This document shows, in pieces, positions 2,832-61,700 of a stretch of 64,000 nucleotides of DNA (position 1 is its first letter; every line of letters starts with the position of its first letter). This DNA is from Apostichopus japonicus (Eukaryota; Echinodermata; Holothuroidea; Aspidochirotida; Stichopodidae). A program made the translations under genes and the position numbers. Below the pieces are notes generated by a model, which was not told where the DNA came from, did no database searches, and saw nothing but the letters and a program-made list of their open reading frames with translations. The stretch covers positions 2,825,001 to 2,889,000 of the forward strand of contig NC_092562.1 of NCBI RefSeq assembly GCF_037975245.1, read 5' to 3'.

Positions 2832-5800
2832 GTAAGTTCAATATTTCTTCTTTTCTAAAATGTATTTTCCCTTTCTTTTGGCCTTTGGTTACTTTTCTTC
2901 TTTCTTTTGTTTATATATTTATTTCGTTTGGTTGTGTTTGTTTGTTTGCGACGATTGCAGTGTCTGTATTTATGCTTTTGATGTCCAGCTTGTATGTGGA
3001 TAGATCTGAAGATATGCAATTTGCCCATCTGGTTAGTGAAACCTGTACTGATGTGTGTGTGTAGCTTATATATTCAACAATCAATGAACATTCAATTTAT
3101 TTTGGTTATTTTAGGGAAGAGAAATGATATCTGAGGTATTTCTGCCATTAATCTTTTTCACCAGATCACCCCCCTTCTCCTTCCCCTCCCCTTCCCCCAC
3201 CCACCCCCAGCACACAGATTTAGGTCAAAACCATTTCTTCGTAGCTCACTGTACAGATACCCTACCTGCGGGTAGCTTCTCCTGATTGATTAATTTGGGA
3301 CACATCTTCTCCCCTTAATGTCTTCAAGGAGCCAGGGAATGTAACAACGTGTGAAGCCTGGTAGGAAGCCGAAATTACTTCCAGGAATGGACAGTTATAT
3401 TTAGCCAAACATCAAATTGAATTTGCTGCATTTGGATGCGTGTGCGTTTACGGGGTTGTGGGAATGTCACTTGCAAGATCAATCGTTTCGGCATCCCCAC
3501 TTTTTGGAAATTATGTACATGGCAAGTGTAAGAGCTTGTAGGAAACAGGTTTTTGCAAAATGACAGTGTCTGGCTTCAGTGACAGATCTAATTTGAGATA
3601 AATCCCTTCCGACTTTATAGGCATGCAAGATTTCACACTGCCAGCACAGTCGAACAGCATGCCCAAACACTTCACGACGAACGAGGTATAACAACCCGTT
3701 GCAATAGTTCCTTGACCTTTACAGAAAGTGCAACATGTATGTGGCTGTTTTTTCCTCTGTAGGGATGTATATGTATACATATTTGTAACTTGAGAACAAC
3801 ACACTGACTGCTGCAGCTACAGTGCATTGGTTTATTGGACAGAGGGGTATATATATATAGAGATGGGTATCATTTAACGAAATTAATGTTGACATGTTTC
3901 ATAATTTTTTATTGGCCTTGAATTTCCATGTTTCTGCATTGCCAAAGTCCCCCCTCGTTAAAATGGGGGGGTGGGGGGAGGGACTGATCTTTTTCATTAA
4001 TCGGCGTCAGTACAGTAACAGTAAAGTAACTAATTAGTGTGGCATGGGGTACAAATGTGTGTAGCTTGGCATTAAGGGCCCGTAGATGTATTAAACCTTT
4101 GATTTACCATAAAGCACCCATGCCCCCAGACAATGTGGGCTCTTCCTCAGGAAAAAGTAAAAAAAGAAAAGCATCATCCATGTAAATAAAGGCAAGTGGT
4201 CTTTACATCTGGGTGACATTGATAATTGACTTTTGATATGTTGGTCAAAGACCACTTTAGATATGAAACCCTGTTACGAATAAATAATATCCCGGCCAAT
4301 TTTGTCTCCCGGGTACCTTCCCCAGTTTGTTTCACTTGATGTAGAGTTATTTACAAAGCGCACTTTTTCTTAAGGAGCATGCACCTACTTCCTCTTCCCA
4401 GTTATCTGCTCAGAGGTCTGTTGGCTTCTTCTGAATCACTAAAGGGTCGGTGAGTTCCCCTTCCCTATCCTACTGCTGGAAGTTTTTACTGTACTTATTT
4501 GCCCCTTGCCCAGCCAGCTCCGTGGACATTGAACTCCCTGTGGCTGTAGCGGCTTCTAACCAGAGTTTAGCTACCTCTCAACTCTTCGGATGATACCTGG
4601 AACTTGCAGGCAACTGTTGAAATGAATTAAACACTCTGATATATCAGTAACTCCAGGAACGCTAGCTAACTTATTAAAATAGCAGTCAGAGATTATAATA
4701 TTCCAGATCAATATAAACAAATATCTTCTAGACGGTGTAATTACCATGTATAAATGCTAATCTTTAAAAATTTCGAAATAATATGCTCTCTGCCAATCCG
4801 CTACTCATTGCATGCAAATGAGCCTTTTACTCTTTGAAACGGGGCTCAATCTTTCTTTTAGTGTGTGTGGTGGTTGCAGTCCCTCTGCTAACATTAACAC
4901 AATTTTGAAAGAAAAAAAAAAAAGGGAAAAGTGTGCCAGATATTTAAAGAACATTTATCTGCCTTGGTTATTAACTTCACACCTGAGACCTGGCTAAATT
5001 TAACCCTTTCATTGGTAAAAAAAAAATTGGATGATTTTTCCTTTCAGAGAAAAAAAATGTTAACTTTCATTGGATGGCTTTGGCCTCGATTAACAGTCCA
5101 CCAGACAGCTGAATAGATGTTCTGAATAGTAACAGTGGCAAGGCTTTAGCCTGACACCCATCTGTCCCTCATGGCCCCAGCTCTGCTCTCTGGTGGTCTT
5201 CACTTTAATTTAATTATGGTGTATGGAATGTGGCATACCTCTACTAGTTTTCACTCTTTTGGTGCAAAGTGGAATTTCACAAATCGTTTTTGTTAAAGCC
5301 CTTTTTCTTAAATATGAGAATATAGCTTCTAGGGATGACAGGAAAACCTGGTGGAAGTGTGAGGATAAAAGTCCGGGGACAATTAGGGGGGGGGGAAGAA
5401 AAAATGATTATGTAAGAAATATATCTGGAAGGGTGCTGCACACCAGATGTGATGAATCGACTCAATGAAAGCATTATGCGTCGTTTCGTTTTATCCACCT
5501 CTTCTACAAATTAAAGATTATCCACTGTAGCTCAGTTCAGACTCTTTGTTTTCCAATTAACATGAAACAAGGGATCATTAATATTAAATTGCATGCACCA
5601 GATTGATAACCAGTATTGTAGAGTATACTTGTGAATATACCTCTTCCTTTTTTTCGATCTTCAGAACCTGGAAGTTTCGAGATCTTTGTTACATTTCAGA
5701 GTATACCAGCTTTGAAGAATATCTTATTGATGATGTAAGTAGATCATCTAATCATCAATCAATATTATTTGAACGACATGAGAACATATATTTAAAGAGC

Positions 5801-8800
5801 ATTTATCTGCCTTGGTTGTTAACTTCACACCTGAGACTTGGCTTAATTTAACCCTTTCATTGGTAAAAAAAAAATTGGATGATTTTTCCTTTCAGATTAT
5901 CCACGGTAGCTTGATTTAGACTCTTTGTTATTAATATTATAATATCTGTTATAATATCTTATTGATGATGTAAGTATACCATCTAATCATCAATCAATAT
6001 TATTTGAACGACATGAGAACATATATTTAAAGAGCATTTATCTGCCTTGGTTGTTAACTTCACACCTGAGACTTGGCTTAATTTAACCCTTTCATTGGTA
6101 AAAAAAAAATTGGATGATTTTTCCTTTCAGATTATCCACGGTAGCTTGATTTAGACTCTTTGTTATTAATATTATAATATCTGTTATAATATCTTATTGA
6201 TGATGTAAGTATACCATCTAATCATCAATCAATATTATTTGAACGACATGAGAACATTAATATTTTTTATGTGAGTGAATTATTGATGGACTTGAATATT
6301 ACATCTAGCTTTCCTGTAACACTATTTTGAAGGATGTTTAAGTAAATTCCTGCTGAATTTCTCAATTCCAGCATGAAGGTACAGTACTGTATACATATAT
6401 CTATGTATATAACTAATACATAACTGAATCCGCCAGGCAAGCAGTTTAAACCCATTTGGTGATTTTCTATAGTTTTTGTTAGGTATTGATTATGTTAAGT
6501 TTTTCCTTGATATATGAATATTAACAATATATATCAATGTCTCTTCTCCCTGAGTTTAATTATCTTAATATATATTGTACTGTACCCAAAATTGATCACA
6601 CCTCATACATGTCACCGTGGAAACTTTGATATAAGTAACCAAATAATAGTTTCAAAGTTTCAAATAATGAAAGAAAGAAAAAGTGAACACACAGTAGAAA
6701 TAAATGATCAGAATTAATTAATATGTACGTCGATCAATCAATCTTGTATAATACCGTCATGATTGTTATGCGAGGCGGTGATGGGGTGGATCATTAATAA
6801 TGCCTGTTTTTGATTATTTTGTTTTCAGATTGTCGATAGGTTGATACCGTGCACTATAGTTACTCCTTTAGACTGCTTCTGGGAAGGAGCGAAACTACTG
6901 GGACCCGAATTTCCCATTCATATTCCGTAAGTACAAATTTCAAACTGTACACAAAATGTACATATTCTATAAGACCATCTCTTTATGCACAATAGGCTAC
7001 AAGGAGGCTGGGGGGGGGGGGATTGTTTTAAACTTTTAATTACTCGTCTTAGAACTGCAGCACATTTTGAGCATTTCTATGTTCCAAATATGCTGCCCCC
7101 TCCCCCCCCCCCAGCTCTGGAGGATTTTATGCTAACTTTTTCAGGTCAAAAAGTTGAGGAAGTACAACAATGCATAAACTGTCATGTTGGCCTTTTGTTC
7201 GGCAGAGAGAGTTAGACATACTTTGATTATAAAGCTTGTAAGGACAGGGATGATGCGCAGAGACTTTGTCATAAGGTGAACTCATTTCCAGGACCACCAG
7301 GGTGTTTTTAAAGCCAGATGCCAGCCCATATGGCAACTTTGTATATTATCTTGTGTACGCTATCCTGTTGACACCTCTCTACATGTGTGAGAGAGGCTGA
7401 GAGTGGTGCTCACACATTGCCCTGGAACAAGATGTCTCTGTTGCAAAGCATTTATGGACCTTTTTTTTTTTTTTTGATCTTTTTTTTTTATCAAATTTCT
7501 GAAATCTTGGTCTTTGGAGGAACGTGACTCTAACTAACTGAGCATATAAAGTACAGTTGTTACAGGTGTGATAGCTATGTATACATACATATATATATTG
7601 TGTTTGAGGAATGAACTGTTGTAAATTTCAGTACATGTATAATATGTAATATATTGCTGCCTGTTTTGGAGAGGGAGATCGAAGATTCTTTAATTTAATA
7701 TCCAGTTATATATACCAAATTTCTGAGTATGTTGGACATGAACTTTAAGATATTCTGGACGATTGTATAACTAGGGTTGTTAAATGAGTTCTATGAGTGT
7801 GAGCATACTTAATAATTCTAGATGTGTTTGAGCTAGAATGTTTGTAAGTATGTTTGGTATTCTTACTAATTCTAGATGTGTGGGAGGCTATAAGTGTGTG
7901 GGTATACTTCTGCATACTTAAAATTTGTAGCCGTATGTGACAACTTTCTATGTATATTCTATATATTTGTGAGTATTAGTAGCATACTTGAATACAATTT
8001 CTAAATGTGTGTGACAACTTTCAATCTTTGTGAGTATGCTTGGCATACTTATATACAACTGCTAGATGTGTGTGACAACTTTCTATGATTATTCTATATA
8101 TTTGTGAGGATGCTTTGCTGCATACTTGAAAGAGTGGTGCTGTCATGGTAACTTGGTCATGGGCTCTTTCCATTTTTTTTGCCAAGTGACCTACTTACCC
8201 CTCACAGGTTCTGTAGCAATTCTTGTAACCTAGATCACAAAAGGAATTAAAACAAATCAAGGGGGCGATGGATTTGCTCTCCATGAAGAACAGAGCAGAA
8301 AGAGGTCACCGATGTTTCCGAGTCGTGTGTCGATATCAAAGTGTTTTCTCTAAACCTCTACGAATCTCCTGATGATTTTGGAATTTTGTTCGTTTGAGGG
8401 CTTCATTCTTCCTCGATTGAAATCTTTTTTTTTTAGTTGTCTTGTTCACGTTCAAACCCACCGGCAGCTATATATATATGCATGCAAGATTTCTGCTTGT
8501 CACACCTGTCTATTTGAGTATCTGCTTCCATCAGGAGAAGTTTTTTTTGCATCTCGACTGTCGTTATTATTTATCGTGCGCAGAGAAAACAGTACACAGT
8601 TTTTTAAATGGAACTGACACGATTGGCAATAACAATGATACACTCAGAAATCGCTGTTTGCTTCAATTTACCTGGTTTTCTTAGTGATCTGATCAGCTCC
8701 CTCAGAGATGAACTTGTACTGGAGGCATCATAAGGAGAAATAAATCGTTGGTTTGATCTGATAAGGAAATTCCTGAAAGTACACCTGTGACATTCATGAA

Positions 8801-11800: not shown

Positions 11801-14800
11801 ACACGATATCTCCAGATAGGCAACTTTATTGGCTCTCATATTTTGCATTTGACTTTCCTATAATGAGTGCAAGAACCCAATTAATGATATTTTATCCATA
11901 AGAACAAAGCAAGTATGTTTGTGCTCAGACTGGGTCACAGTTCGTGACGGATGGAGAACGAACGAGATTCACATGTGAATAATCATTGCGTTACTAGGCG
12001 GGCAACTTTGTGCTGCGACAATATCACATCCCACCCCCCCCAAGAAAAAAGGGAAAACAAGAATAAGATTCACATGTTGGAAGTAGGCTTCACACAGACT
12101 GTTGATCGAATTTTATTTCTCCCTTCCAGACTGTACGTAACAGTTCCAGTGTAAATTCAACTCAGGATGTGAACGCGTTCACATCGACAGCTCTGAATGA
12201 TCTCTTGGCAGAGTTTTCAGAGATGAGTGTAATACGGGTAGCTCTAGGATACTGCCTCATGGTGAGTTCACCTATGTGAATATATATACTTTCCAACAAG
12301 GAAATCTCATTTGTTTTATTAATATTAGGTCATCAGCATCCTGTTGTTATGTTTAGTGCCATTTCTTGACCTAGGATGAAAAAGGCAAACTGCTTGCTTG
12401 CTTGCTTATTTAACGGGTTTGGTATATATATATATATATATCTATATAAATATGATAGTAGATGTTTCTGGTGTTTAAGGTTGTTCTAAATGAGAGTCAG
12501 TCCTAAATGATCTCCTGTGGATAGGAACACCTGTTATGAAGGTAATATTTAAGGCTTTCATGGGGTACTTTGTTGGCGATTTGAAAACTCCAAAGCAAAG
12601 ACAGAAATTGGTGGAGCATCACATTAATGTAGCCTTTGCGCTGAGTTGGCTAAATATGAATAGAAACTTGATATTTTAAATTGTCATGACAATGTTAAAT
12701 TTTGAATGATGAGAAAAGAGGGGGGTGGGGAGTGAGTGGAGAGAAAATGTTTAGAATGGAATGGAAGTATTTTGTGCCTCTAGTTGCTGCAAACTAGATG
12801 TACTCGAATGTTTCGTTGGCATTTTTTTCTTCCATTTTGCATAAAACTCCTCGCTTTTGTTTTGTGACTGTTCCGCATTCTCCTCCTCCCTTGCAGGTTA
12901 TCTATGCCTTCTTAACCATGTTGAAGATCCACGACGGAGTCAAATCACAGGGTGGGGTGGGGCTAGGTGGAGTGGTGCTGGTCACGTTTTCTGTGGCAGC
13001 ATCTCTCGGTTTCTGTGCCTGGATAGGTATCATGTTCAACGCAGCCACAACTCAGGTGCTTCCTTTCTTGGCATTGGGAGTCGGGGTCGACGATATGTTC
13101 CTATTGGCTCATTCAGCCACATCAATACCTTCTGAAATTCCATTTGTGGTAAGTCCCTCCCTCTGTGGCAGTTTCATTTTCATTTGGTCACATTTTAGTT
13201 TTGCGATTGTTGAATTTATTAACTTCATGTCACTCAGCCTCAAATCCCTTGAAGTAGCCTACTTACATGTAAGTGGATACCCTAATATGATATGAATGGG
13301 GGGTTGGGGGAAGGGGCATGGGGAAGGGGGCGTGGTTATAACCGGAAGTCATGTGAGCATGGTGTAACACAACATTGAAACTTGCAAAAGAAATTTATCG
13401 TATTACTTTTTAAATTTGTTTCATTGGCAAACTTTTTGGAGCATTTGCCACTTTCTTCGTATTTCATGGTGCGATTTCTTGGTGGACTGAAGAGAGGGTT
13501 TTGAATGTTTATTTAATTTCGACCATTTCTGTACGGAATCCCCGCAGATTGTGGGGAAGTTGCTGCAAATGTAAGCCAACTGACATGTCATTGAATACTG
13601 AACACTTACTCAATCCCAGTCCTAGTTCAAGAGAACTTCACCTGTTTTGGTTCAAGAGAACTTCACCTGTTACGGGTTTACCCCACTCAAATTTGAATGA
13701 CCTCTGAAGAACCGTATCTAGAGTTTGATACAATAGTTTGAAATTGTGTTAATTGTCCAGATATTGCCTTACATAAAGTTTGTAAATTCTTGCAGTGGAT
13801 TATTTATGTTTTTCTGTCTTTAAAACATGGTGGAGTTAATTTACAGCTATTCCACAGAAACCTTTCATTCCCAACATTTTGCCGACAATGTTTTATTGCT
13901 GTGTACATAAATATATAACCTGTCACTAGGTGGTGACTAGACTTAGGTTACCCGGGTGGGTGTGTGACAGCTGTGAGAGATATGCAGGTGTCCATCCATC
14001 CTGGGTGTGTCTGTGTGTGGAGAGAGGTGGTGTTGTGAGTTTACACATTCATACTTAAAAAAAAATAACGGCTTGTAAATGTCACCTTCAACATTCCCCA
14101 GGACAAGATATTCAAGGCAGTGTTTATAATATACTACTTTATTCACACTCTGCAGGCAGGAAGACCACAATTTAGTTCATGAAGCCCTCCTCTCCCCCCC
14201 CCCCCCCAAAAAAAATAAATGTTCAGGCTTGCCTTTACCACCGTTGATCACCGGTAACTTATGACTGGTTCTGCTGATCTCTTTGACTTAAATTCCCATT
14301 GCCCTGTACCAAACCAGAAGAGCAATATGAGGCCGGGACCCTCCCCCACTACTCCCATATCAATTCATTGTCTCTCCAGTCTCTAAAATAGATCTCTCTC
14401 TCCTCTTCCTTAAATTTCATTTTTGGGGGGGGGGGTAAATACCAAGCATGGAGGAAAGATGTTGTAACTAGTTAGTCTGTACTGTCACACTCAGGATGCC
14501 CTGTCAGGAAGATTTATGCCGTTTCTGTCCACAACTTGTAGAGGTGGTAACCTTTTACTTCTTTGGGTCATAAATATTCCCTCTTTTGCCCCTATTAATG
14601 TCAAGATCAGCCTCCCATAGTTATGTGGCAAGGACAGAAATATCCCATTGTGGAAAAAAAAAGACTTAGCCAACAATCATGGCCAGGTGTGTGTCACAAA
14701 TTTAGAGTTGGGATGAGCCAGCCATTAACACTGCTTTAGCTTTAGCCCATTGGGCATTCAGAACATTGTGTACAACATTGTACAGTGTGGTACATATATA

Positions 14801-17800: not shown

Positions 17801-20800
17801 TGTTCTGGCATGAAATTGTCTTTGACGATATGTAAAAGTACAAGTCTGGAGTTAACTTTGTAAAGATTTTTGTTTGGCGGTGCCCTCCCAAAGAGATTTA
17901 CAATGGATACGGAAAGGGAGAAGGAAAAGAGCAGGCATTAAGGTTCAAGAACCTCGTAAAAGAGGTGATTATTGTTTTAGCTCTCAGGTGGATGGCAATT
18001 TGGAGGCGAGAGGGTACAATGTAAAATCAGAGTGTATTTTACAACAGGGTGGGTCACCGTTTGTTGGCATTTGTGTACTCGATGCGATCTGAGGAATAAG
18101 TTCAGACAATAAGGGGAGGGGAATGTTTGCTTTTATGGTAGTCGATGGAGCGAGCGGTGATGTATATTTGTACTTCTGCCAGGAGCTATTCCATAACCCT
18201 AGATGAAACAAGAAAATAAAAAGAGAGAGAAAAACTGCAATGACATTGAACCTTGCACTAACAGTAAATCATTTCAGCAATTGGGTAATCAGAATAATCT
18301 CTGAGGGAGTAGTTACTTTATATTAACCAGCTTCCGTGGTGCTTATTATTATTTGTAACACAATCCACCAATTCAGTCGAAATTGTGAAAATTTTCCGAT
18401 GGATTTCAATGTTTATTTGTTCAAAGAAGACTGAGTGCAGTAGGTCTTCCCTTCAAAAGTTTCCGATGTTTTTCCTGGAGGTTTTAGATTGTGATAGCCC
18501 TCGTTAATGGATGCATGGCTTGCATGCATCTGTTGATGCAGATTAATATCGGATGATGTAATAAATTGGTCTTTTTGATAAAATCCCTTTGATTAAGACA
18601 CAACAGGAAAGATTAAAATCATAATTAATGAACTTTTTGCAACCACATTTAATTTGGAAACAAAAACTGTCACCCCAATCATCATCATTGGTACCGTTAA
18701 CAAAGAGTTAGCGAACAGTACTTTACTGATTTCTTAATAGTTTATGCTGAACATTAAGCTTGGAAAGTTTGAAAAGAAAACAAGGGGAATAAGTCTATGT
18801 TTTTTTACTTTGGGCAGACTGTTCAAGTAATTAAAGCATTTAACCTGCAGTTGTTTGCAGCTTGTCATTTATGCTGCAGGTTTCACTCGTGTAAAGTTGT
18901 TAAATGTAAATACACCATGGGACTACCAAGAACCAAGTAAATATTGAATAATATTGCTGAATAGAGAAGTGAAATTGGTTTATGAAGATCTTTTCAATTC
19001 TGAATGAGACGTTCAGGCAATTTGTGATGACCTATTCATCTAAATCTCATATTATAATTTGGATTAATTGATCAGTTAAATTATGTACATTAAGTTGATA
19101 TTCCATTATAACAATGGTAAAGGCTAATTAGACTTGAATGATAGGCAAGTGTTAGTAACAGGTTGTATTTATTACATGTTTTTTTAAATTTTGAAACTGG
19201 TCAAGACAGAGCAAGCAGTGGGCAAATGATTGTTACCATGGCAACTTGTGGAGATAGCCCATGATGTAGGAATTAATGACATGGAAGGTCTTGCTTGCTT
19301 GGCCTTGCATTCAGGAAGTAATGTGTCTTCCAGTGTTATGATTGCTCTATGTTGTTTTATGAAGGATGGGGTCTCCTTAGCTTAACAGTCTGCCATGCAC
19401 TCATGGGGAGATGTTATGTTGTGCTAACCTTGGCGTGAATTCTCATATAGCAGAGATTGCTGAAAGATATATCTAGGGCAAGTGGACATGAATGGTTATT
19501 ACATGCAGTGTGGTAGGTATATAGAGTAGTAAGTTAGGCTCCATGGTGCAAAACCATGTACAAATCCAATGGGTGATTGTATGCACAGGGAACTGTGTTG
19601 GAGTACAGTAGGGACTCTGTTGGTTGATTGAGGGGGGGGGGTGGGTGGGGGGGGGACGGTTATGCACTGTGTTGAAAGTCAACTAAATGTAAGGGATGGA
19701 AACTGAACACAACATTGGAGATCAGACTGAAAAAGTCAGCTGGTTGACAGAGAGAGAATCATTGAGTTGAAAGATGTACGACTCCTCCCGTATATATATA
19801 TATGTCTGCATTGCTAACCATAGGTTTGACCATATCAGCTAGTATACTGTTGAGAATTGAATACTTGATACCTCCTGGCCAGTAGAAATTTTAGCTAGTC
19901 CTTGTCCTCATCACACTCACATTCTTTCATAATTGTCTGTACTTGAAAACCTCATTCATGGTTATTGGTTACTCATCACTTGTGGGCAATTTGAAAATCA
20001 AATATCTAGATTTCTAAATAGTGCAAAATATATATGCGGTACTCACACTGGTGCTTAGAGGTACTCATTCTTGTACACTTTCCAAGGTTCTTCTTGTACT
20101 CGTACTAATACTCATACCAAGGGAAATGATACTTGTACTCATATTGGTACTGTACTCATACCAAGGAGAATGCTCCTTGTACTTCTACTGGTACTCATAC
20201 CAAGAGGAATTATCCACATGTACTCATATTGGTACTCATACCAAGGAGAATGCTCCTTGTACTTCTACTGGTACTCATACCAAGAGGAATTATCCATGTA
20301 CTCATATTGGTACTCATACCAAGGAGAATGCTCCTTGTACTTCTACTGGTACTCATACCAAGAGGAATTATCCACATGTACTCATATTGGTACTCATACC
20401 AAGGAGAATGCTCCTTGTACTTCTACTGGTACTCATACCAAGAGGAATTATCCACATGTTCTCATATTGGTACTCATACCAAGGAGAATGCTCCTTGTAC
20501 TTCTACTGGTACTCATACCAAGAGGAATTATCCATGTACTCATATTGGTACTCATACCAAGGAGAATGCTCCTTGTACTTCTACTGGTACTCATACCAAG
20601 AGGAATTATCCACATGTACTCATATTGGTACTCATACCAAGGAGAATGCTCCTTGTACTTCTACTGGTACTCATACCAAGAGGAATTATCCATGAACTCA
20701 TATTGGTACTCATACCAAAGAGAATGCTCCTTGTACTTCTACTGGTAGTCATACCAAGAGGAATTATCCATGTACTCATATTGGTACTCATACCAAAGAG

Positions 20801-23800
20801 AATGCTCCTTGTACTTCTACTGGTACTCATACCAAGAGGAATTATCCACATTTACTCATATTGGTACTCATACCAAGGAGAATGCTCCTTGTACTTCTAC
20901 TGGTACTCATACCAAGAGGAATTATCCATGTACTCATACTGGTACTCACGACAAGAGGAATTCTATGTACAGTATATGTACCCATCATGCTGTTGTACAG
21001 TACCCCTAATACAAGTCCAATGTATAAGTCTGCTCTCTGTTTTAGCTGTTTATGGGTTACTTGTAAATTGGGTGTGCTGCACTGTTTGTTTATCTAGTCC
21101 TTGAAGTTATTGATGAGTAGGATATAGCTGTATGATTATGTCATAGCCTGTTTGGATAAGGTCATTGAGCACAGACCAGGGGAGGTCAGCTGGGACAGCT
21201 CATGGTGAACTGTTTATCATACAGCTCTTCTTTTTTTTTCCAGTTGAAATTTGATGATGGCATCAGTCAACTTTTATATTACTAAATGGAGAAAGAGTAC
21301 ACATTTTTTTGGAAATTTATGATTCCTCATTCTTGGATGTGAAAAATGGTAAAAGGAAAAAATCGATTGACTGGAAAAATTGTAGACTTTGTGATGTAAG
21401 AGATAGATGACAGGGAAAATTTTTTTTACCACGATCACATTGCAGAATGCTATGCAAAATGGTCAAGTACTTAAGTTACTTTACAGACCATCCAAAGATG
21501 GTATTTATAGTGGTGTTTTTACGCAGGAATGTTTTATTACAGACAAAATTCAAGAGTCTTCAAAAATGCTACACAGTTAAAATTATTCCCTGGAGATGAT
21601 GATGATAATATTGGGGGCAGCAGACTGGGGGTGATGGACACAGGGGCAGAGGAAATGAAGAGCAGAATGTGAGAATTCAGAGTTATGGAAAGAGAGAGAG
21701 AGAGGATGGTGATGGGAAGGGGGGAAGGAAGGGGCGATGAATTTTAAACGTTGTCGTGGTATTGATTAATTGGTTCGTTGGTTAATCTGCCTACTTTGTT
21801 GCTTGCCCCGGCTGCTTTCTTGCAGTCCATAAAACTTCTATTTACCAAAGCAGGGTCTATCAACTCCATTAAACTCCATACATGTTACTACAAACGTTCA
21901 CTGTTGTCCATGCTTAACGTCAGAGAGTGCAAAGGGGGAAAAAAAATCCATATTGGCTGTTACGGTCGAGCCACTTGTAAGAGAGAGAGAGGGAGGTGGT
22001 GTATGATGCATCATGGTGTATGATGCATGATGCGGCATAGCTGAGGGTAGTCTGAATGGCTGCTATTCCGTGGCAGGTACTAGAGTCGCTGATTGGAATT
22101 TGATTGCCTCTGGTAAGGATCCAGGAGGATGATCAGTCATCGTGGTCTATCAGTGGGCTTCACTTTTTATCTTCTTTTGCTAACAAAAAATGGTTATTAA
22201 GGTATGCTGACTAGTGGCTTGTTTATCCCTTTTTATGGAATATAGTCGGTTTAGAGTCTAGCGGGTAGGAACAACGTCTTGACTGATCCCCAAGGAAAAC
22301 CTTTCTCAGTTTTTTATGATGATGTGTCGCCTCTCAAGTGGCCCCTTTCCTGTTGTCTGCCTCCGAAGATTTATAGAGGTTTTTAAAAAAAAAAAAAAAA
22401 AACCTGTAATATTTTTGCTGTTAATTCTCTACTGTTGAATATGTCATATTATTATTGGTCCCGGCGAACATTAAGTCGAAAGGTCTCCGATTCGACTAGC
22501 TATTATGTGTCTATTAAACCCAGCGTCAGAAGTTTTTCCCCCCAAGTATTTCCAATGCAATAAAAGACAAACTACATGAGGTATTTAACATAAAATTACA
22601 GAGTTTTGCAATTTAAAAAAAAAAGGGAGAAAAAAAAAGGATTGAACCAGGCAGGTGTCTGCACTAACAAGATGAGGATAATTTGTCACTGGTCATGCTA
22701 GATTTCAGTACACACTCAAAAATATACTGTAGGTTTGTCATATAAAACTGCGGTCAAATCCTTCAACCCACCCCAAACCTCCGCCTCCCCCCTTTAATGT
22801 GTTACAAATATCAGGTTGTTTGTTTGCTGGAATATACATACAGTATATGTGTAATATGAAAATTGGATTTTGAGGCATATTTGTAAATCTTGACTTTGAG
22901 TGTACCAGGGAGTGTGAATTGTGTGCTGCACCTACTGTAGTAGTCATTTCAATCATTGTGTGAATTCATGGGTGGGCTGTCACATGTTCTCACATTCCTC
23001 TGGTAAACAGGCCTGGTTAAAATGGTGAAGTTTGTGTGTATAGTACATATGAGCTAGGAAAAGGCATGGGAATGGGCCTGATTGGTCAGAGAGAGGTCTT
23101 ATTGGGTCAAGAGTATTTCCAGCCATAAGGACACTGACATGCCTTATGAAAACAAACAACTAACCAAGCTTATTGCTGAAATTACTGGGAGGTAAATGGT
23201 AGAAATCTTGAAGGAGCCAATTTGCCAAAATTACTGGAGTGTTTTCCGGTGCATCATTACACTGTATAATCACAGAGGCTTTTCAAAATGCACTTGTACA
23301 GTTTGATGAAATCTGTCTCAGTATTTAAAGAAACCTCTATATACAGCTGTTGTGTATATGTCATATCCAGAGGCAGGGGGATATTGCTAGGGCTTACTCC
23401 TGGATAGGTAGGTGGATTGGGTATCTTGGGTGGTCTCGTCCTACAGCCAACAAATAAGAGGTCTTATAATGTTATTTATTACAGGCTAGAACCAATAAAA
23501 CCTATGCCTCTTAATAAGAAATCCATTTCTGGGCTAATGACTCATACATGGCATTGTGGTGAGTATGTTAATTCTTTAATGGAATAATGGCATTGCGCCT
23601 GTACATACTTATCCCCGTGTCTATATATATACAAATAGTAGTGTACTAAATATAGGATATATGTGTAGGATATGTAGGATATACACAGGATGTAGGATCA
23701 TAGGATATACTTAGGATATACTTAACATATGTAAGTCATTAAGACAAATACATAGAAACCTGCCTCAGGGTCAATCACCTCATCTCTACTTTTTCCTTTT

Positions 23801-32800: not shown

Positions 32801-35800
32801 GGGTGAACACGAAAGAGATAGATGTATGAGGATTAGTAGACAAGGGATGGAGAGAAGAGGGAAGAGGGAGGGAAGAGGAGAGGTAGCAGATAAAGTTATT
32901 TTAATTTTACCGAAATGTTGACTCTTGAAAAGGAAAAAGCAACTTTTGTCATGCCGGTGGTCACTGCTACAGGGTGCAAATGACATATTTGATGCTTCTG
33001 CGTAACATTCTAGCCTACTTTTGGGATGACACACGAAGCCTGGTTAATTTTCTGTCGATCTTGATTAATTCTTCGATGCCACATGGTTTCTAAAGTTCCC
33101 TCACGTCGAGCTCTTTGCCTTTGTTTTGTGTTAAAATATGGAAGAATATATGCATCCTCATAGGATCATTTGGGAATGCTTTAAAGGTTTATTAATTATT
33201 CATATTCTTAGCATCCTGCTGGAATTTGCATCTCACTCAGATAAAATTATCCTCTCGACTATGTACCAGAATGATGTCATCTCTGCTGTTTTAATACCTG
33301 AAATGCTTTTATCTAATATCTTTCTTTATGTACACAGGCCTTTCTGACAGCTGTGGGTGACAGGGAAAACAGGATAACAATTGCTTTAGAGCACACTTTA
33401 GCTCCAGTGTTGGATGGCGGCTTCTCAACTCTTCTTGGTGTCCTTATGTTAGTCGGTACCGAATTCTTATTCATCATACAGTAAGTACTACCACAGATGA
33501 TCTCTTAACAGTTTTGACATTTTAAAAACTGACTGCTGCTTGCCTTTTATAATGTTAATTCTATCGTTACCTCACCCAATGAAATAACTCTGATGTCTCC
33601 TTCAAACTGCTCAACTGGAATCCCCCCCCCTCCCTCCCCTTCTTTAATTCATTTATTTGTTTTATCGCCAATTGTATACAATGTGAAAGGAAGTCTCCTA
33701 TAACATCTTAAAAAGACTTAACAAAGTTGGAGACTCCCTGGAAGAAAAAAAAAAATGTATAATCATAAATAATACAGTAAATACGCAAGGATTAAATATA
33801 CAGTAATAGTACCTAATGATGCTGAGATGGATACGTGAATAGATTATATAGTACTAGTACGAGTTCATAAATTCCTTTTTCAAATGTCTGGTGAATGTGG
33901 TTTTGAAGGTATAGACTTCAACTTTTTGATAGAGATCATTCCAAATTTGTTTTGCTCTAGTTTAAAGACCGGCTTTCCCTATGTTGTGTCTATGGTAAAA
34001 ATTGCTATTAGCGTTGTCGGCTTGTCTTGTATGATGGTTATGTAAGACTTCATTGTTCTGGTTATAAGAGCAACTATGAGGAATTGTAGGATTCCTGTCT
34101 GTTGGTTTCCATCCCCCCCCCCCCCGTGGGTTTACTGCAAGGTGGCCGCAGTCACCGCAAGATCCACAGGAGTTGGGATAACAAGCACAATCCATGACTC
34201 ACACATAGGTCATGGCCTGCCTTTAGGGACAGTGGGTGTTTTGTGGGTGATCTGTAAGTAATGTCAACGAGAACAGTCTAGGTAACAAATTGTCTGGTCA
34301 ATATAACAAAGTCTGAGAATTATTCAGGAGTCGGCCAGTTCATCAATACAAGTTATGGAACAAATTAGCCAGCTACTTAGAAGAAAAACGGGGCTAGGAC
34401 TCTTTGAAACTGAATCATTTCTCAATCACCTTCTTCAAACATCACAAGTCACCGGTGAATTCTTGATAAGAACAGTTTCTTCAGACGTCATTTAATACCA
34501 AAGTATCGAAGCTTCGTCATGACCAAGGTATGGAAGCCTTGTTATTACAGCTGTGTTAATGCAGATGGCAACATTTTCAAACGTAGCAAGAAGAAATACT
34601 GGGTGTTCTGACCTCAACTCACCTCCCAAGCACATACTACTTGTACCGCCCCCCTGGGAATTTGATTTCTAATGGTGAAAAAACCAACTGCTTTGTGGTG
34701 GGGATAATAGATTCCCAACGAGGAAACAATTTTCTCTTTATCCTCCATTTTCTTCCCTCAGTTTTTTAAATCCTTTGAGATTGTCTCTAATTCAGAGCTA
34801 ATCCTTTGAGGGAGTCCTAACTCAGACTTGCGTCTAGCTATACATTTTAAGGCGTCCCAATATCTCTCCAAAATAAAAATTCTATCACGTCGGTCAACAA
34901 TAACTTACATCATGTTTATCACCTTGTGTTTGATCTACACATCTGTGTGAAAACGACGAATGTTAGCTTTGCTTATCTTAGTGATCATGCCAAGAGAAGT
35001 GAAGGTTTGCTGTTCATGCACGGTATTCCTGTATGATTGAAAGTAACGGAATAGTGTTATGTAAGGAATGTAATGGTAAGGAGTGTTATTATAGGTAGTG
35101 TTATTGTATGGAGTGTTAATGTAGGTAGTGTTATGGTACTGCGTTATTGTAAGGAGTGTAATTGGCAGTAGTGTTATCGTAAGGAATGTTATTGTAAGGA
35201 GTGTTATTGTAGGTAGTGTTATTGTAAGGAGTGTTATTGTAGGTAGTGTCATTGTAAGGAGTGTTATTATAAGTTGTGTTATTGTTGGGAGTGTTATTGT
35301 AAGTCATGTTATTGTAAGGTAGTGTTATTGTAAGGGAGTGTTGTTGTAAAGTAGTGTTATTGGAAGTAGTGTCATTGTAAGGAGTGTTATTGTAAGGGAG
35401 TGTTGTTGTAAGTAGTGTTATTGTAAGGGAGTGTTATTGTAGGGAGTGTTATTGTAAGGAGTGTTATTGTAAGGAGTGTTATTGTAAGGAGTGTTATTGT
35501 AAGGTAGTGTTATTGGAAGGTAGTGTTATTGGAAGTAGTGTTATTGGAAGTAGTGTCATTGTAAGGAGTGTTATTGTAAGGGAGTGTTGTTGTAAGTAGT
35601 GTTATTGTAAGGGAGTGTTATTGTAGGGAGTGTTATTGTAAGGAGTGTTATTGTAAGGGAGTGTTATTGTAAGGTAGTGTTATTGTAAAGTAGTGTTATT
35701 GTAAGGAGTGTTATTGTAAGGTAGTGTTATTGTAAAGTAGTGTTATTGGAAGTAGTGTTAAATTTTGTATCTCTCTGTTTTTCTTTCCACAGTTACTTTT

Positions 35801-47100: not shown

Positions 47101-50100
47101 CATTCCGAAAAGTCCAGGATGACTTAGGAGTAGGGAACTCCCTCGGGCTGCATTTTGTTTGTGTGATACTGGGTTGTGTACTGCAGACGTTAAGTTTTAA
47201 TATCCGTTGTTAATGGTGATGTATTTAAATTTCATTGTAATATACCAGAGAAAGGCAAAAGTGATAAAACTTGCATCAACAATTTCTGATTACCCACTTC
47301 CATTTATTAATAGTTCTGGCATGATAGGGTTTTATGTTCCATCATGACCTTTTTTCAGCATATGTACAGTTGTTCTTTTTGCTTACAAATATTTTTTTGT
47401 AATTATCAATAAGTGACCAAATTTGGGTCCTAGTGAGCCAAATATTTCTATAAAAACAGTCTATTATGCCGTGCAGCATAACACTCATGGGTCTCACTTG
47501 CATGTACTCATGTCAAGTTCAGGAATATTCTCATAATTTAAAAGGAGTTGTCAACAAAATACGTAATTTTGGAGCCTAGAAAGCCTCCCGTAGATCACAT
47601 AGGGAATTATCCCAGCCGCTTGTATTAACGTCTGCCTTGTCTCTTTTTGCGGTGAAGGTGCCGTGCATCTGACAGGCTACTTGGTTCAGGAGAAACCATT
47701 TGATTCCGAAGAGGAACCGATTCTCGGTTCTCCCCCGGAGTCATCAGAAGATGGTATGGAAGTCAGTGACGAGGAAGGTGATGCCAAAGAGGATCTTGAT
47801 GGTAAGCATCGAGTTAGGGGGGTATGGTTACAGGGAGGAGAAAGAGGGGGGGAGGATAGATGATAATGAGAGAGTGGTGGCCAATTGGCTAAGGCGTCGG
47901 GCTGGTGATCCAAGGATTGCTGGTTCGATTCCTGCCTAGTTCATTACGTTGTGTCCTTGGGCAAGATGCTTTATCTCAATTGCCTCTCTCCACCCAGGGG
48001 TTAAATGGGGGCAGTATATAACTGCTGCCGACTGGAGGGATTGTCTCTGGGACAGGTCATCATTGACCAGGGGTAATATAACGTCTGTAAAGCGCTTTGA
48101 GACCTATCGCTGGTATAAAGCGCTATATAAATAATCAAATATTATTATTATTATAGGGTGATGTGTAGTGTTGGGTATGAGACATGGACAGGTTTTTTTT
48201 TTTTGGCAAATGAAACAATTGTCGCAATTGACCTGAACAGATTAATGACATTGAGTGTTTGCTCTCTCCTTTGATAGAAACCATTCCAAGCCTTCAGCAA
48301 CTTGCGTCTGGACAGGATTTAGAGTCTGAGGACGATGAGAGTGAAGAGGAGTGGACACCAGTGCAGAAAGGTGAATAATGCAAGAGCGCCCTCTAGTTGA
48401 TTGTTGAGTCTAGATGATGAGTATTTGAATGCTTCCTACATTTGTGATGCGGGGTATGGGGGAGGGGGTCCTGCTTTAATCCATAATCGGGTGATACTGT
48501 CATTATTTAGTCCATAGTCTCAAAAGAAGCAAAAATTACCCCTTTGAATCACCTCAAGGAAAAGAAGCAAATTATATGGTTCCTTAAATAAAAGTACTTA
48601 CCATTATGAATTTTCTGAGTTAGGGTTTTCAATTTGGTATTCTTAAAATATTGACCATTTCCATTTTCTCTTTTATTTCTTTAAACATTTGCAGCCGAGT
48701 CAACAAAGAAGAGAAAATCGACAGAAAAGACACCAACGACTCAGAAGAAGAAAAAGTCAGAAGGTAAGATACCCTGGGTATCCAGGTATGCCTAGATGCA
48801 GACTATTAAGCAGGTCTTGAATAGCTCCTCACTATCTTATATAGTATCGTGTGGCTATTGCTGGTATCAATGAGTCAGGGTCATTACCAAGAAGTGAGTT
48901 GGGGGAGGGGGGAAAGGGGGTTGAGGGAGGGGGGTTGAGGGAGGGGGAAAGGGGGGTTGAGGGAGGGGGAAAGGGGGTTGAGGGAGGGGGAAGGGGGTTG
49001 AGGGAGGGAGGTTGGAGGTGTCGGTTGCACTTGTTTATATTCTGTGAAAATGACGTACATGGTTAATATTGGAATATGAAAAGAGACCTTGGTTTTGTTG
49101 TTTTGGAAATACTTTTAATTTCACAGCACTGGGGGTGGGGGGTGGGGTTGAGAAGGGTAGGGAATGGCAGAGGGAGGATATCAGGTGACAGTACATATTC
49201 TAGCTGATGTTCTGAGGAATTTATTTTGGTGCAGAACCAATCCAGGGTCAAATGAATAGCAAATCCCTAAGCAAACCTGGATGCATGAAACCTGGATGCA
49301 TAAAAGTGAATGCATGCAAACAGAATAAACAACTCTTGGCTGGATTTGCTTTTACCTGCGTGCTGTATGATGAGATTAAGCAATTCAGATGTGAATCTCA
49401 TTTGTTTGAGCTTGGAGACCTGTGTATTTTTGAAAAACTTAAAGAGAGATAATTTGTTACTTTATTTTATTTTCAACTTGCTGATCATGTGAACGTCATT
49501 TGTAGCTACTGCTGATAGTCTGGTACTGTGGACATAAAACATAGATACCGCCGATAGTGTTGACGTTACACATAGGTACCACTGATAGTGTGGACAAAAC
49601 AGAAATAGCACTGACATTACACAAAGACATAACACATAGATGTGACAAAACACAAAGATGCCACTAATAGTCTGGGCATAACACATAGCTGCTACCGATA
49701 GTGTGGACGTAACATGTAGCCTGCACTGATAGTGTGGACATTACACATAAATACCACTGATGTGGACATAACACAAAGATACCACTGATGTGGACATAAC
49801 ACAAAGATTACAGTAATAGAGTGAATGTAACACATAGATACCACTCAAGGTGTGGACATAGCGCAAAGATGCCACTAAGAGTGTGGACATAACATTTGTA
49901 GATACCATATATAGCACTGAGAGTGTAACAGTGTGGACATAACACACAAATAGCACTGATAGTGTAGACATTACTCATGCATATCTTTATTACTCTGGAC
50001 ACATCTAGATCTGATAGTCTGTATTTGGAAACATTTCTGGGTTTTTTCATCATGAGGGGTTTAATATCTTTGTGCTTAAATGTGACATGTCGCAAAACAA

Positions 50101-54729: not shown

Positions 54730-55370
54730 ACATGGTCGACCTACGTTACTCCATGGAGGTGCATAACCCGATCCTAACATATTTTAGCATCCTGAATCCA
54801 CATGAGCATCCTTTAATAAATCTGAGAAATAACATAATTTTCTGGAAAATTTGGAAGGCTAAATCCCTTATCATTTTTTCATATTTTGGCCCAAAATCAC
54901 GACTTTTTCAATTCTTCTCAAAACGATACAAATGGAGTAGGGCGCCCTTCTGTGTATATATCAAGCATAATTATGTTCTTATTTATTCCCATTTGAATGA
55001 AAATGGCCTTTTTTCTACACAAGTTTAAATATCGGTTTACTATTAAGAAATAGGCCAATATGAACCTTAAACTTCCGAGAAATTCCACTTGAAGTCAATC
55101 AAAATACATATTTTATCATCCTGAATCTGTAATGAGCATCCTGAAATATATCTGAGAAATTTCATAATTTTCTGGAAAATATTGTAAGGCTATATACTCT
55201 TATCATTTTGTCATATTTTGGCCCAAAATCGCGACTTTTTCAATTCTTCTCAAAATGATACAAACGAAGTAGGGCGCCCTTCTGTGTATAGTTTTGATTC
55301 CTTTCCATGTGATTAGAGTAATAAAAACACTAATATTTTGGTGGAGAAATGAAATTTAATAACCATATTT
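54730..55370. repeat. Satellite edge, left (diverged type)
   Basis: It is related to the core unit (ttttggcccaaaatc, cgactttttcaattcttctc, agggcgccc) but diverged, and carries extra sequence (catcctgaat, tctgagaaat, ataattttctggaaaat, caagcataattatgttctta). The same extra sequence, in the same orientation, recurs at the right edge (61240-61690). Confidence 0.85.
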
Positions 55371-58300
55371 TGATGTCATTTCATATCGGATTTAAATGAC
55401 TAAAACTTCGTGGAATCCCACTTTTGTTCTCGGGAAAAGCATGTACTGGATGCTGGAGGTCTGTTATATGTATACTGACAGGAATTTGAGAGCTTTCATT
55501 TTTGGCCCAAATTCGACAATTTTGTAAGGCTACACCCTTATGATTTTGTTCGATTTTGGCCAAAATCACGACTTTTTTAATTCTTCCCAAAATTGTAGCT
55601 GCAGTGTGTGGCGCCCTTTTGATTCCTTTCCAGGTGATTAGAGTAGGAAAAACACTAATATTTTGGTGGAAAAATGAAATTTAATAACCATATTTTGACG
55701 CCATTCATATCGGATTTAAATGACTAAAACTTCGTGGAATCCCACTTTTGTTCTCGGGAGAATCGTGTACTGGGTGCTGGGGTCTGTTATACATCCTGAA
55801 AGGAATTTGAAAAAGGAAAAATGAAATTCAATAAACATATTTTGACGTCATTGATATCGGATTTAAATGACTAAAACTTCGTGGAATCCCACTTTTGTTC
55901 TCGGGAAAAGCGTGTACTGGGTGATGGGGGTCTGTTACACGTATCCTGACAGGAACTTGAGAACTTTCATTTTTGGCCCAAATTCGACAATTTTGTAAGG
56001 CTATACCCTTATGATTTTGTTCGATTTTGGCCAAATTCACGACTTTTTTAATTCTTCCCAAAATTGTACCTGCAGTGTGTGGCGCCCTTTTGATTCCTTT
56101 CCAGGTGATTAGAGTAGTAAAAACACTAATATTTTGGTGGAAAAATGAAATTTAATAACCACATTTTGACGTCATTGATATCGGATTTAAATGACTAAAA
56201 CTTCGTGGAATCCCACTTTTGTTCTCGGGAGAAGCGTGTACTGGGTGCTGGGGTCTGTTACACGTATCCTGAAAGGAATTTGAGAACTTTCATTTTTGGC
56301 CCAAATTCGACAATTTTGTAAGGCTATACCCTTATGATTTTGTTCGATTTTGGCCAAAATAACGACTTTTTTAATTCTTCCCAAAATTGTACCTGCGGTG
56401 TGTGGCGCCCTTTTGATTCCTTTCCAGGTGATTAGAGTAGGAAAAACACTAATATTTTGGTGGAAAAATGAAATTTAATAACCATATTTTGACGTCATTG
56501 ATATCGGATTTAAATGACTAAAACTTCGTGGAATCCCACTTTTGTTCTCGGGAGAATCGTGTACTGGGTGCTGGGGTCTGTTATACATCCTGAAAGGAAT
56601 TTGAAAAAGGAAAAATGAAATTTAATAAACATATTTTGACGTCATTGATATCGGATTTAAATGACTAAAACTTCGTGGAATCCCACTTTTGTTCTCGTCA
56701 GAAGCGTGTACTGGGTGCTGGGGTCTGTTACACGTATCCTGACAGGAACTTGAGAACTTTCATTTTTGGCCCAAATTCGACAATTTTGTAAGGCTATACC
56801 CTTATGATTTTGTTCGATTTTGGCCAAATTCACGACTTTTTTAATTCTTCCCAAAATTGTACCTGCGGTGTGTGGCGCCCTTTTGATTCCTTTCCAGGTG
56901 ATTAGAGTAATAAAAACACTAATATTTTGGTGGAAAAATGAAATTTAATAACCATATTTTGACGTCATTGATATCGGATTTAAATGACTAAAACTTCGTG
57001 GAATCCCACTTTTGTTCTCGGGAGAAGCGTGTACTGGGTGCTGGGGTCTGTTACACGTATCCTGAAAGGAATTTGAAAAAGGAAAAATGAAATTCAATAA
57101 ACATATTTTGACGTCATTGATATCGGATTTAAATGACTAAAACTTCGTGGAATCCCACTTTTGTTCTCGGGAAAAGCGTGTACTGGGTGATGGGGGTCTG
57201 TTACACGTATCCTGACAGGAACTTGAGAACTTTCATTTTTGGCCCAAATTCGACAATTTTGTAAGGCTATACCCTTATGATTTTGTTCGATTTTGGCCAA
57301 ATTCACGACTTTTTTAATTCTTCCCAAAATTGTACCTGCAGTGTGTGGCGCCCTTTTGATTCCTTTCCAGGTGATAAGAGTAGTAAAAACACTAATATTT
57401 TGGTGGAAAAATGAAATTTAATAACCACATTTTGACGTCATTGATATCGGATTTAAATGACTAAAACTTCGTGGAATCCCACTTTTGTTCTCGGGAGAAG
57501 CGTGTACTGGGTGCTGGGGTCTGTTACACGTATCCTGAAAGGAATTTGAGAACTTTCATTTTTGGCCCAAATTCGACAATTTTGTAAGGCTATACCCTTA
57601 TGATTTTGTTCGATTTTGGCCAAAATAACGACTTTTTTAATTCTTCCCAAAATTGTACCTGCGGTGTGTGGCGCCCTTTTGATTCCTTTCCAGGTGATTA
57701 GAGTAGGAAAAACACTAATATTTTGGTGGAAAAATGAAATTTAATAACCATATTTTGACGTCATTGATATCGGATTTAAATGACTAAAACTTCGTGGAAT
57801 CCCACTTTTGTTCTCGGGAGAATCGTGTACTGGGTGCTGGGGTCTGTTATACATCCTGAAAGGAATTTGAAAAAGGAAAAATGAAATTTAATAAACATAT
57901 TTTGACGTCATTGATATCGGATTTAAATGACTAAAACTTCGTGGAATCCCACTTTTGTTCTCGGGAAATGCGTGTACTGGGTGATGGGGGTCTGTTACAC
58001 GTATCCTGACAGGAACTTGAGAACTTTCATTTTTGGCCCAAATTCGACAATTTTGTAAGGCTATACCCTTATGATTTTGTTCGATTTTGGCCAAATTCAC
58101 GACTTTTTTAATTCTTCCCAAAATTGTACCTGCGGTGTGTAGCGCCCTTTTGATTCCTTTCCAGGTGATTAGAGTAGGAAAAACACTAATATTTTGGTGG
58201 AAAAATGAAATTTAATAACCATATTTTGACGTCATTGATATCGGATTTAAATGACTAAAACTTCGTGGAATCCCACTTTTGTTCTCGGGAGAAGCGTGTA

Positions 58301-61230
58301 CTGGGTGCTGGGGTCTGTTACACGTATCCTGAAAGGAATTTGAGAACTTTCATTTTTGGCCCAAATTCGACAATTTTGTAAGGCTATACCCTTATGATTT
58401 TGTTCGATTTTGGCCAAAATAACGACTTTTTTAATTCTTCCCAAAATTGTACCTGCGGTGTGTGGCGCCCTTTTGATTCCTTTCCAGGTGATTAGAGTAA
58501 TAAAAACACTAATATTTTGGTGGAAAAATGAAATTTAATAACCATATTTTGACGTCATTGATATCGGATTTAAATGACTAAAACTTCGTGGAATCCCACT
58601 TTTGTTCTCGGGAAAAGCGTGTACTGGGTGATGGGGGTCTGTTACACGTATCCTGACAGGAACTTGAGAACTTTCATTTTTGGCCCAAATTCGACAATTT
58701 TGTAAGGCTATACCCTTATGATTTTGTTCGATTTTGGCCAAATTCACGACTTTTTTAATTCTTCCCAAAATTGTACCTGCGGTGTGTGGCGCCCTTTTGA
58801 TTCCTTTCCAGGTGATTAGAGTAATAAAAACACTAATATTTTGGTGGAAAAATGAAATTTAATAACCATATTTTGACGTCATTGATATCGGATTTAAATG
58901 ACTAAAACTTCGTGGAATCCCACTTTTGTTCTCGGGAGAAGCGTGTACTGGGTGCTGGGGTCTGTTACACGTATCCTGAAAGGAATTTGAGAACTTTCAT
59001 TTTTGGCCCAAATTCGACAATTTTGTAAGGCTAAACCCTTATGATTTTGTTCGATTTTGGCCAAAATAACGACTTTTTTAATTCTTCCCAAAATTGTACC
59101 TGCGGTGTGTGGCGCCCTTTTGATTCCTTTCCAGGTGATTAGAGTAGGAAAAACACTAATATTTTGGTGGAAAAATGAAATTTAATAACCATATTTTGAC
59201 GTCATTGATATCGGATTTAAATGACTAAAACTTCGTGGAATCCCACTTTTGTTCTCGGGAGAAGCGTGTACTGGGTGCTGGGGTCTGTTACACGTATCCT
59301 GAAAGGAATTTGAGAACTTTCATTTTTGGCCCAAATTCGACAATTTTGTAAGGCTATACCCTTATGATTTTGGCCAAAATAACGACTTTTTTAATTCTTC
59401 CCAAAATTGTACCAGCGGTGTGTGGCGCCCTTTTGATTCCTTTCCAGGTGATTAGAGTAGGAAAAACACTAATATTTTGGTGGAAAAATGAAATTTAATA
59501 ACCATATTTTGACGTCATTGATATCGGATTTAAATGACTAAAACTTCGTGGAATCCCACTTTTGTTCTCGGGAGAAGCGTGTACTGGGTGCTGGGGTCTG
59601 TTACACGTAACCTGAAAGGAATTTGAGAACTTTCATTTTTGGCCCAAATTCGACAATTTTGTAAGGCTATACCCTTATGATTTTGTTCGATTTTGGCCAA
59701 AATAACGACTTTTTTAATTCTTCCCAAAATTGTACCTGCGGTGTGTGGCGCCCTTTTGATTCCTTTCCAGGTGATTAGAGTAGGAAAAACACTAATATTT
59801 TGGTGGAAAAATGAAATTTAATAACCATAGTTTGACGTCATTGATATCGGATTTAAATGACTAAAACTTCGTGGAATCCCACTTTTGTTCTCGGGAGAAT
59901 CGTGTACTGGGTGGTGGGGTCTGTTACACGTATCCTGACAGGAATTTGAGAACTTTCATTTTTGGCCCAAATTCGACAATTTTGTAAGGCTATACCCTTA
60001 TGATTTTGTTCGATTTTGGCCAAAATAACGACTTTTTTAATTCTTCCCAAAATTGTACCTGCGGTGTGTGGCGCCCTTTTGATTCCTTTCCAGGTGATTA
60101 GAGTAGTAAAATCACTAATATTTTGGTGGAAAAATGAAATTTAATAACCACATTTTGACGTCATTGATATCGGATTTAAATGACTAAAACTTCGTGGAAT
60201 CCCACTTTTGTTCTCGGGAGAAGCGTGTACTGGGTGCTGGGGTCTGTTACACGTATCCTGAAAGGAATTTGAGAACTTTCATTTTTGGCCCAAATTCGAC
60301 AATTTTGTAAGGCTATACCCTTATGATTTTGTTCGATTTTGGCCAAAATAACGACTTTTTTAATTCTTCCCAAAATTGTACCTGCGGTGTGTGGCGCCCT
60401 TTTGATTCCTTTCCAGGTGATTAGAGTAGGAAAAACACTAATATTTTGGTGGAAAAATGAAATTTAATAACCATATTTTGACGTCATTCATATCGGATTT
60501 AAATGACTAAAACTTCGTGGAATCCCACTTTTGTTCTCGGGAGAATCGTGTACTGGGTGCTGGGGTCTGTTATACATCCTGAAAGGAATTTGAAAAAGGA
60601 AAAATGAAATTTAATAACCATATTTTGACGTCATTGATATCGGATTTAAATGACTAAAACTTCGTGGAATCCCACTTTTGTTCTCGGGAAAAGCGTGTAC
60701 TGGGTGATGGGGGTCTGTTACACGTATCCTGACAGGAACTTGAGAACTTTCATTTTTGGCCCAAATTCGACAATTTTGTAAGGCTATATACCCTTATGAT
60801 TTTGGCCAAAATAACGACTTTTTTAATTCTTCCCAAAATTGTACCTGCGGTGTGTGGCGCCCTTTTGATTCCTTTCCAGGTGATTAGAGTAATAAAAACA
60901 CTAATATTTTGGTGGAAAAATGAAATTTAATAACCATATTTTGACGTCATTCATATTGGATTTAAATGACTAAAACTTCGTGGAATCCCACTTTTGTTCT
61001 CGGGAGAATCGTGTACTGGGTGCTGGGGGTCTGTTATACGTATCCTGACAGGAACTTGAGAACTTTCATTTTTGGCCCAAATTCGACAATTCTGTATTCC
61101 TTTTGATTCCTTTCCAGGTGATAAGAGTAGTTAAAACACTCATATTTTGGTGGAAAAATGAAATTTAATAACCATATCTTGACGTCATTTCATATCGGAT
61201 TTAAATGACTAAAACTTCGTTGAATGCCAC
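55371..61230. repeat. Satellite core: 323-bp unit with 148-bp truncated variant
   Basis: Full units contain, in order, tgacgtcattgatatcgga, ctaaaacttcgtggaatccc, gtgtactgggtgctggggtc, tttttggcccaaattcgac, ttgtaaggctatacccttat, cgacttttttaattcttccc, tgtggcgcccttttgattcc and aacactaatattttggtgga. Equivalent points lie 323 bp apart over long runs. A short variant lacking the middle (gaatttga joined to aaaaggaaaaatgaaat) occurs five times (about 55797, 56588, 57060, 57855, 60583), producing 471-bp and 794-bp spacings. Units are nearly identical. About 20 TGACGTCA palindromes occur. Confidence 0.96.
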
Positions 61231-61700
61231 TTTTGTTTTATCATTCTCCTCAATGATTAGGGCGCCTTACTGTGTATATATATATATGGCATAATAATGT
61301 TCTAATTCATTCCCATTAGAAAGAAATAGCCTTTTTTCTACACAAGTTTATATATTGGTTTACTATGATTAACATGGCCAATATTAAACTTAAATTTCCG
61401 AGAAACTCTGCTTGAAGTTGATCAAAATACATATTTTAGCATCCTGAATGCGTATAAGCATCCTGAAATAAATCTGAGAAATTTCATAATCTTCTGGAAA
61501 ATTTTGTAAGGCTAAATCCCTTATCATTTTTTCATATTTTGGCCCAAAATCGCGACTTTTTCAATTCTTCTCAAAATGATACAAACGGAGTAGGGCGCCC
61601 TTCTGTGTATATATCAAGCATAATTATGTTCTTATTCATTCCCATTTGAATGAAAATGGCCTGTTTTCTACACAAGTTGATATATTGATTTATTAATATT
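61231..61700. repeat. Satellite edge, right (diverged type)
   Basis: Diverged units matching the left edge: tcctgaatgcgtataagcat, tgagaaatttcataatcttc, aaatcgcgactttttcaatt and tcaagcataattatgttctt. The array ends near 61690. Confidence 0.85.

Follow-up and report, generated by a model that had tools for sequence, protein, structure and literature searches.

A locally homogenised satellite array bordered on both sides by a second satellite type in Apostichopus japonicus

Organisation of the array and its surroundings

We analysed a 64,000-bp stretch of the Apostichopus japonicus genome (C2:2825001-2889000, hereafter the window), together with searches of the whole assembly (671,581,487 bases in 35 contigs). 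Near the right-hand end of the window lies a tandem array of about 6 kb, which was recovered both by Tandem Repeats Finder and by a second repeat-detection program. Its units are longer than 100 bp and run head to tail, and the unit is present in many genomic arrays, as expected of a satellite. Unit mapping of the core (C) gave 15 full-length units of 313-325 bp each and five short deletion units of 147-149 bp (starting at 55669, 56463, 56933, 57729 and 60452), in agreement with the initial annotation of ~323-bp units with five ~148-bp deletion variants. Diverged relatives had also been noted on both edges in the same orientation, and these proved to be ~329-bp monomers of a second type (E). 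Copy number and unit order are given as assembled, with no N in the window or in loci L001-L008. The features of the array, all on the plus strand and in window positions, are as follows.

54777-55291, +: left edge, E-type satellite, made up of one complete 329-bp monomer (54788-55116) and the E portion of the monomer that follows; in the E clade of the tree, with the E-specific half at 54948-55109
55117-55343, +: chimeric junction monomer, E to ~55291 and C from TTTTGATTCC at 55292 (a partial C unit of 52 bp, 55292-55343); its two tree rows lie between the E and C clades
55344-55668, +: first full C unit, 325 bp, with outgroup alleles at two of nine diagnostic sites
55669-56462, +: first short-A-B higher-order block, 794 bp (unit mapping)
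56463-56932, +: partial short-A block, 470 bp (unit mapping)
56933-57728, +: second short-A-B block, 796 bp (unit mapping)
57729-58522, +: third short-A-B block, 794 bp (unit mapping and block comparison)
58523-60451, +: six C units of 313-324 bp (A, B and four B-like), with no short unit among them (unit mapping)
60452-60914, +: the fifth of the short units, followed by the last near-full C unit of 316 bp (unit mapping)
60915-61237, +: truncated C pieces of 184, 54 and 85 bp (unit mapping, outgroup alleles)
61238-61700, +: right edge, E-type satellite, oriented as the left edge (repeat comparison, tree, E-specific half)

Variant sites order the left part of the core as first unit, short-A-B, short-A, short-A-B and short-A-B, and the right part as A, B, four B-like, short-A and truncated pieces, with an A-type or A-like unit directly following every one of the five short units. 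The blocks are 98.5% identical over 784 bp at an offset of 794 and 99.4% identical over 931 bp at an offset of 1266, while neighbouring A and B units are only 96-97% identical; the multi-unit blocks are thus more alike than adjacent units, which is the hallmark of a higher-order repeat. Near-identical blocks reach 1119 bp, at offsets (e.g. 794, 1266 and 2060) that are sums of unit lengths. A 794-bp higher-order period had been described from two blocks; both were recovered, read in another phase, and the third block (57729-58522) extends that count. Open stretches of 107 codons occur inside A-type units of this putatively non-coding array.

The array had been placed in gene-rich DNA, at given distances from two stop codons, and these gene distances were not confirmed: when ten open frames were compared with Pfam (E-value 0.01), only the frame at 12798-13292 was matched (sterol-sensing/Patched domain, E-values 5.4e-18 and 1.3e-11), and none near the array. 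Elsewhere, the window contains a minisatellite with ~46 copies of a 15-bp unit (35053-35760), a second minisatellite with an 80-bp period and a 39-bp half period that leaves open frames (20093-20948), and 2.3 copies of a 235-bp unit with 99% matches (5718-6257), which is probably a recent tandem duplication. A tRNA match is present on the plus strand at 47871-47943 (Rfam, 35 bits against a cut-off of 29).

Homogenisation of the core and its relatives in the genome

Full C units average 97.1% identity within the array. By position, the mean identity to the other full units is 94.3% for the first unit and 95.6% for the last, and lies between 96.7 and 97.8% for the 13 units between them, so that the higher identity in the centre anticipated by the initial annotation is indeed found. 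We also scored nine diagnostic sites, chosen because the 13 units of the array middle differ there from 11 other array groups. The first unit (55344) has outgroup alleles at 2/9 sites, and the pieces at 60915, 61099 and 61153 have them at 2/6, 2/3 and 3/4 sites, respectively; among the other 14 full units there are none in 13, including the last near-full unit (60599), and one in the unit at 57082. The five short units carry 2, 1, 0, 1 and 2 outgroup alleles at six sites. A gradient is thus evident at the first unit and in the truncated pieces on the right; for the middle it is in part built in, as the diagnostic sites were chosen from the 13 middle units and some of their allele purity follows from that choice.

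The short units result from a deletion of 176 bp. Its junction was matched five times without mismatch, always in this array, and a search of the 671.6-Mb genome that allowed three mismatches gave no other copy, so a single event was propagated inside the array. Since this one deletion stands in five places and the block offsets are sums of unit lengths, it was copied in register, and such copying of the core fits both unequal crossover and gene conversion. A deletion unique to the array marks a single unit lineage, and homogenisation is weakest in the outermost units; the core is thereby a clean natural example of local homogenisation.

Relatives of the C unit are widespread. A first genome search, in which 9 of 303 candidates were scored, returned the window array and at least eight other places on C2, C4 and C6. 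A 56-bp core pattern, with three mismatches allowed, matched the genome 142 times against none for the reversed control, so the repeat is present far beyond chance, and a 25-base pattern from the module shared with E (see below) gave 2007 matches at up to one mismatch (control 0). In all 12 array groups, units were more alike within the array (89.3-98.4%) than in any comparison between arrays (80.9-94.3%), the margin in L001 and L005 being less than one point. This is a pattern of concerted evolution with which the tree agrees. In the array-end comparison, from which the three-unit array L001 was left out and which had no chance control, the terminal unit fell below the inner mean of its array at 17 of 22 ends and was the lowest unit at nine; terminal divergence is not universal among C arrays. 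At L002 (2030-4093), a C array is arranged head to head, minus units followed by plus units, meeting at phase 173. The L003 array is flanked by an inverted pair, ~1.2-1.7 kb to its left and 0.6-1.2 kb to its right, pieces of which match the right flank of L004. We found no published description of this satellite for Apostichopus japonicus, sea cucumbers or holothurians in a literature search that covered little subscription literature.

The edge monomers and their junctions with the core

The edge monomers (~54777-55290 and 61238-61700) are direct repeats of one another, with identities of 87.5% (360 bp compared) and 91.9% (270 bp). Their relationship to the core was examined in a tree of 100 rows drawn from 304 C and 36 E monomers, with at most four monomers per array except for the window; L018 was excluded here and from the breakpoint analysis as it overlaps L021, and L016 had no monomer long enough. 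In this tree, a split with 100/100 support sets 24 E rows apart from all others; these rows come from the window edges, the edge of a sister array and seven further loci on six contigs. The 74 C rows, from 16 array groups, form one group (98/100). Two overlapping rows of the window junction monomer fall between the two groups. The grouping of the window edges with the sister edges is weak (88/22), and the tree bootstrap had not settled. The split between E and C is older than the array.

Comparison of half-units shows where the two types meet. A profile built from E matched 67 of 68 C module halves at an E-value below 1e-3 (shuffles 0/340), and none of the 68 other C halves at that threshold (best 5.4 bits). 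At an E-value below 10, 18 of these 68 were matched (best E-value 0.06) against 10 of 340 shuffles, with 0/17 in the reverse direction; a faint trace of homology in the non-shared halves may be present, weakly indicated by these matches. The E profile found all eight left-out E loci, with 61-112 bits among the matches listed. With the cut applied here the shared module is 145 bp long; stricter alignments of E loci mostly give ~110-125 bp. Compared between arrays, the module is conserved no better than the other half in C (87.0% against 86.3%, 95% interval -2.5 to +4.0 points for the difference, over 16 arrays) and better than the other half in E (77.8% against 70.4%, interval +3.8 to +11.1, eight arrays). 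Gradual divergence of E and C along their full length was considered and rejected, as the non-shared halves align no better than shuffles (z 0.2) and the profile matches are weak. In one of their halves, E and C thus differ beyond ordinary drift, through either replacement or very old divergence. Two E-type arrays, L009 (C2:5.098-5.104 Mb) and L016 (C22:13.798-13.801 Mb), display a 657-bp dimer period and a shortened 223-bp spacing.

At the left junction in the window, the switch from E to C at TTTTGATTCC lies ~12 bp beyond the shared module. On the right, the two types join out of register, C phase 84 meeting E at a phase that does not match, and a deletion or end-joining is needed to explain this. 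The sister C array (C2:1,919,028-1,953,858) lies on the opposite strand 0.93 Mb away and adjoins an E monomer (C2:1,953,918-1,954,245); both of its ends and part of its inside were read, and its middle is known from pattern matches. Here, C also begins at TTTTGATTCC, E breaks off ~70 bp earlier than in the window, and the gap between them is filled by 63 bases of degenerate, telomere-like CCCTAA repeats. A third C array (C2:2,492,465-2,506,491, both ends read, the middle stretch known from module-pattern matches) has E on both sides in opposite orientation. The E-specific half was found beside C in the window, in the sister and at both ends of this third array. These three are the only ones, among 15 array groups for which one or both ends were read, to have E beside C within ~1-3 kb of flank. 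Apparent E-like DNA beside C at L027 was discounted, as the E-specific profile finds none there.

Telomere-like CCCTAA repeats stand at the start of two C arrays, L001 (1939-1987; C2:63.4 kb) and L021 (1462-1512; C2:1.954 Mb), on the same side and in the same orientation. A strict CCCTAA motif scan of 29 loci and the window found none beyond these two and L018, which overlaps L021. Searching the genome for CTAACCC no more than 30 bases from TTTTGATTCC yielded four matches, located at three places; two of these places are the arrays just named, and the control yielded two matches. As judged from these two cases, an association of telomere-like repeats with C-array starts is suggestive. Prompted by the palindromic junction at L002 and by array ends near phase 180, we considered an imperfect inverted repeat (phases 155-220) as a hot spot for breakpoints. 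The phases of 27 hand-picked C-array ends, mostly one per array side in a set that left out E-array module edges and most internal breaks, showed no clustering when scanned against a uniform distribution (lowest P 0.09), and the idea was dropped.

Origin of the arrangement and comparison with known satellites

We consider it probable that the window holds a local array of a dispersed satellite superfamily, with a C array nested in a short E array and homogenised locally. In this reading, C (~323 bp) and E (~329 bp) are two old monomer types that have a module of ~120-145 bp in common and form arrays on several contigs. C DNA would have entered or arisen in an E array when DNA recombined, or a break was repaired, at the shared module or close to it, possibly by way of circles or broken ends; unequal crossover or gene conversion may have done the later copying of C. 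Such an event near the module would fit the left junction; it would not account for the right junction, nor for the telomeric patch of the sister. The small share of array groups with E beside C (three of 15), the scattered phases of array ends, the uneven terminal divergence of C arrays and the faint trace in the non-shared halves also count against this reading. A further proposal holds that C and E arrays have repeatedly been planted in each other by recombination or break repair near the one common module of the superfamily (~120-145 bp), with some junctions patched by telomeric repeats, and that new families form by swapping the other half of the monomer; we regard this as doubtful.

The initial annotation had read the locus as a single array, in which unequal crossover homogenised the middle and the edges are the oldest surviving copies of the same repeat. 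The identity gradient, the outgroup alleles of the outermost C units, the common orientation of the two edges and the weak colinear trace in the non-shared half all speak for it, and for the C core and its terminal units it holds. It finds no support at the E edges, where the tree and the half-unit tests both speak against it: in the tree these edges group apart from the core, together with E monomers from seven further loci, they share only one module with the core, and E recurs beside C elsewhere, once inverted. That the edges are old copies of the core array is thus not supported, and as an account of the whole locus the single array is improbable. Diverged relatives at the edge of an array may, as here, be a neighbouring satellite of a different type.

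An old inverted duplication, by which the window and the sister array (C2:1.919-1.954 Mb) would be copies of one E-plus-C locus that were then homogenised separately, has a real if minor chance of being correct. Their E monomers are 88.0% identical (287/326), C starts at TTTTGATTCC in both, and no other two arrays have C units as similar as theirs (94.3%). However, E differs more than C, and the first C units are less alike (92.8%, 297/320) than the first unit of the sister is to nine inner units of the window (95.3-96.9%); on the left, homology ends with the repeats, and the telomere-like repeats are found in the sister junction only. Transport of the array to each place by a Helitron-like or other non-autonomous mobile element, with fixed ends around an internal tandem array, seems very improbable. 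The many dispersed arrays of the C unit, the presence of E at the border of two other C arrays, the inverted pair flanking the L003 array (76% over 589 bp) and the mutual matches between flank pieces of L003, L004 and L008 could be read in this way. An all-against-all comparison of the flanks of nine loci (16 flanks, with only the right for L006 and L007) gave partial matches among L002, L003, L004 and L008, but no sequence common to all and hence no constant termini; in addition, the array ends lie at scattered phases and E adjoins just one end of the sister array. In our preferred reading, of a C array nested in E, the locus is ordinary satellite biology with an informative junction, and the common module and the recurrence of C beside E make it a testable case of how satellite families originate and spread.

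Primate alpha satellite has a higher-order core with older monomeric layers on its flanks. The window array resembles it in being layered and in having higher-order repeats in its core (for alpha satellite, see PMC4496801). Unlike alpha satellite, the array here is ~6 kb long and is not known to be centromeric, and its flanks are not full-length relatives of the core. The Drosophila 1.688 / 359-bp satellite family (see PMC7642928) likewise has related units of similar length in many arrays; it belongs to another animal group, and the likeness is one of description, our array being known only as sequence. In satellites under concerted evolution, homogenisation is more complete in the middle of an array than towards its ends, and variants that diverge at the ends may give rise to new satellites (PMC5615363). 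The window array shares with the satellites described there a better-homogenised centre, array-specific variants, short dispersed euchromatic arrays and a library of subfamilies. It differs from them in that its outer edges are a second subfamily, which has a single module in common with the core and meets it at a sharp chimeric junction.
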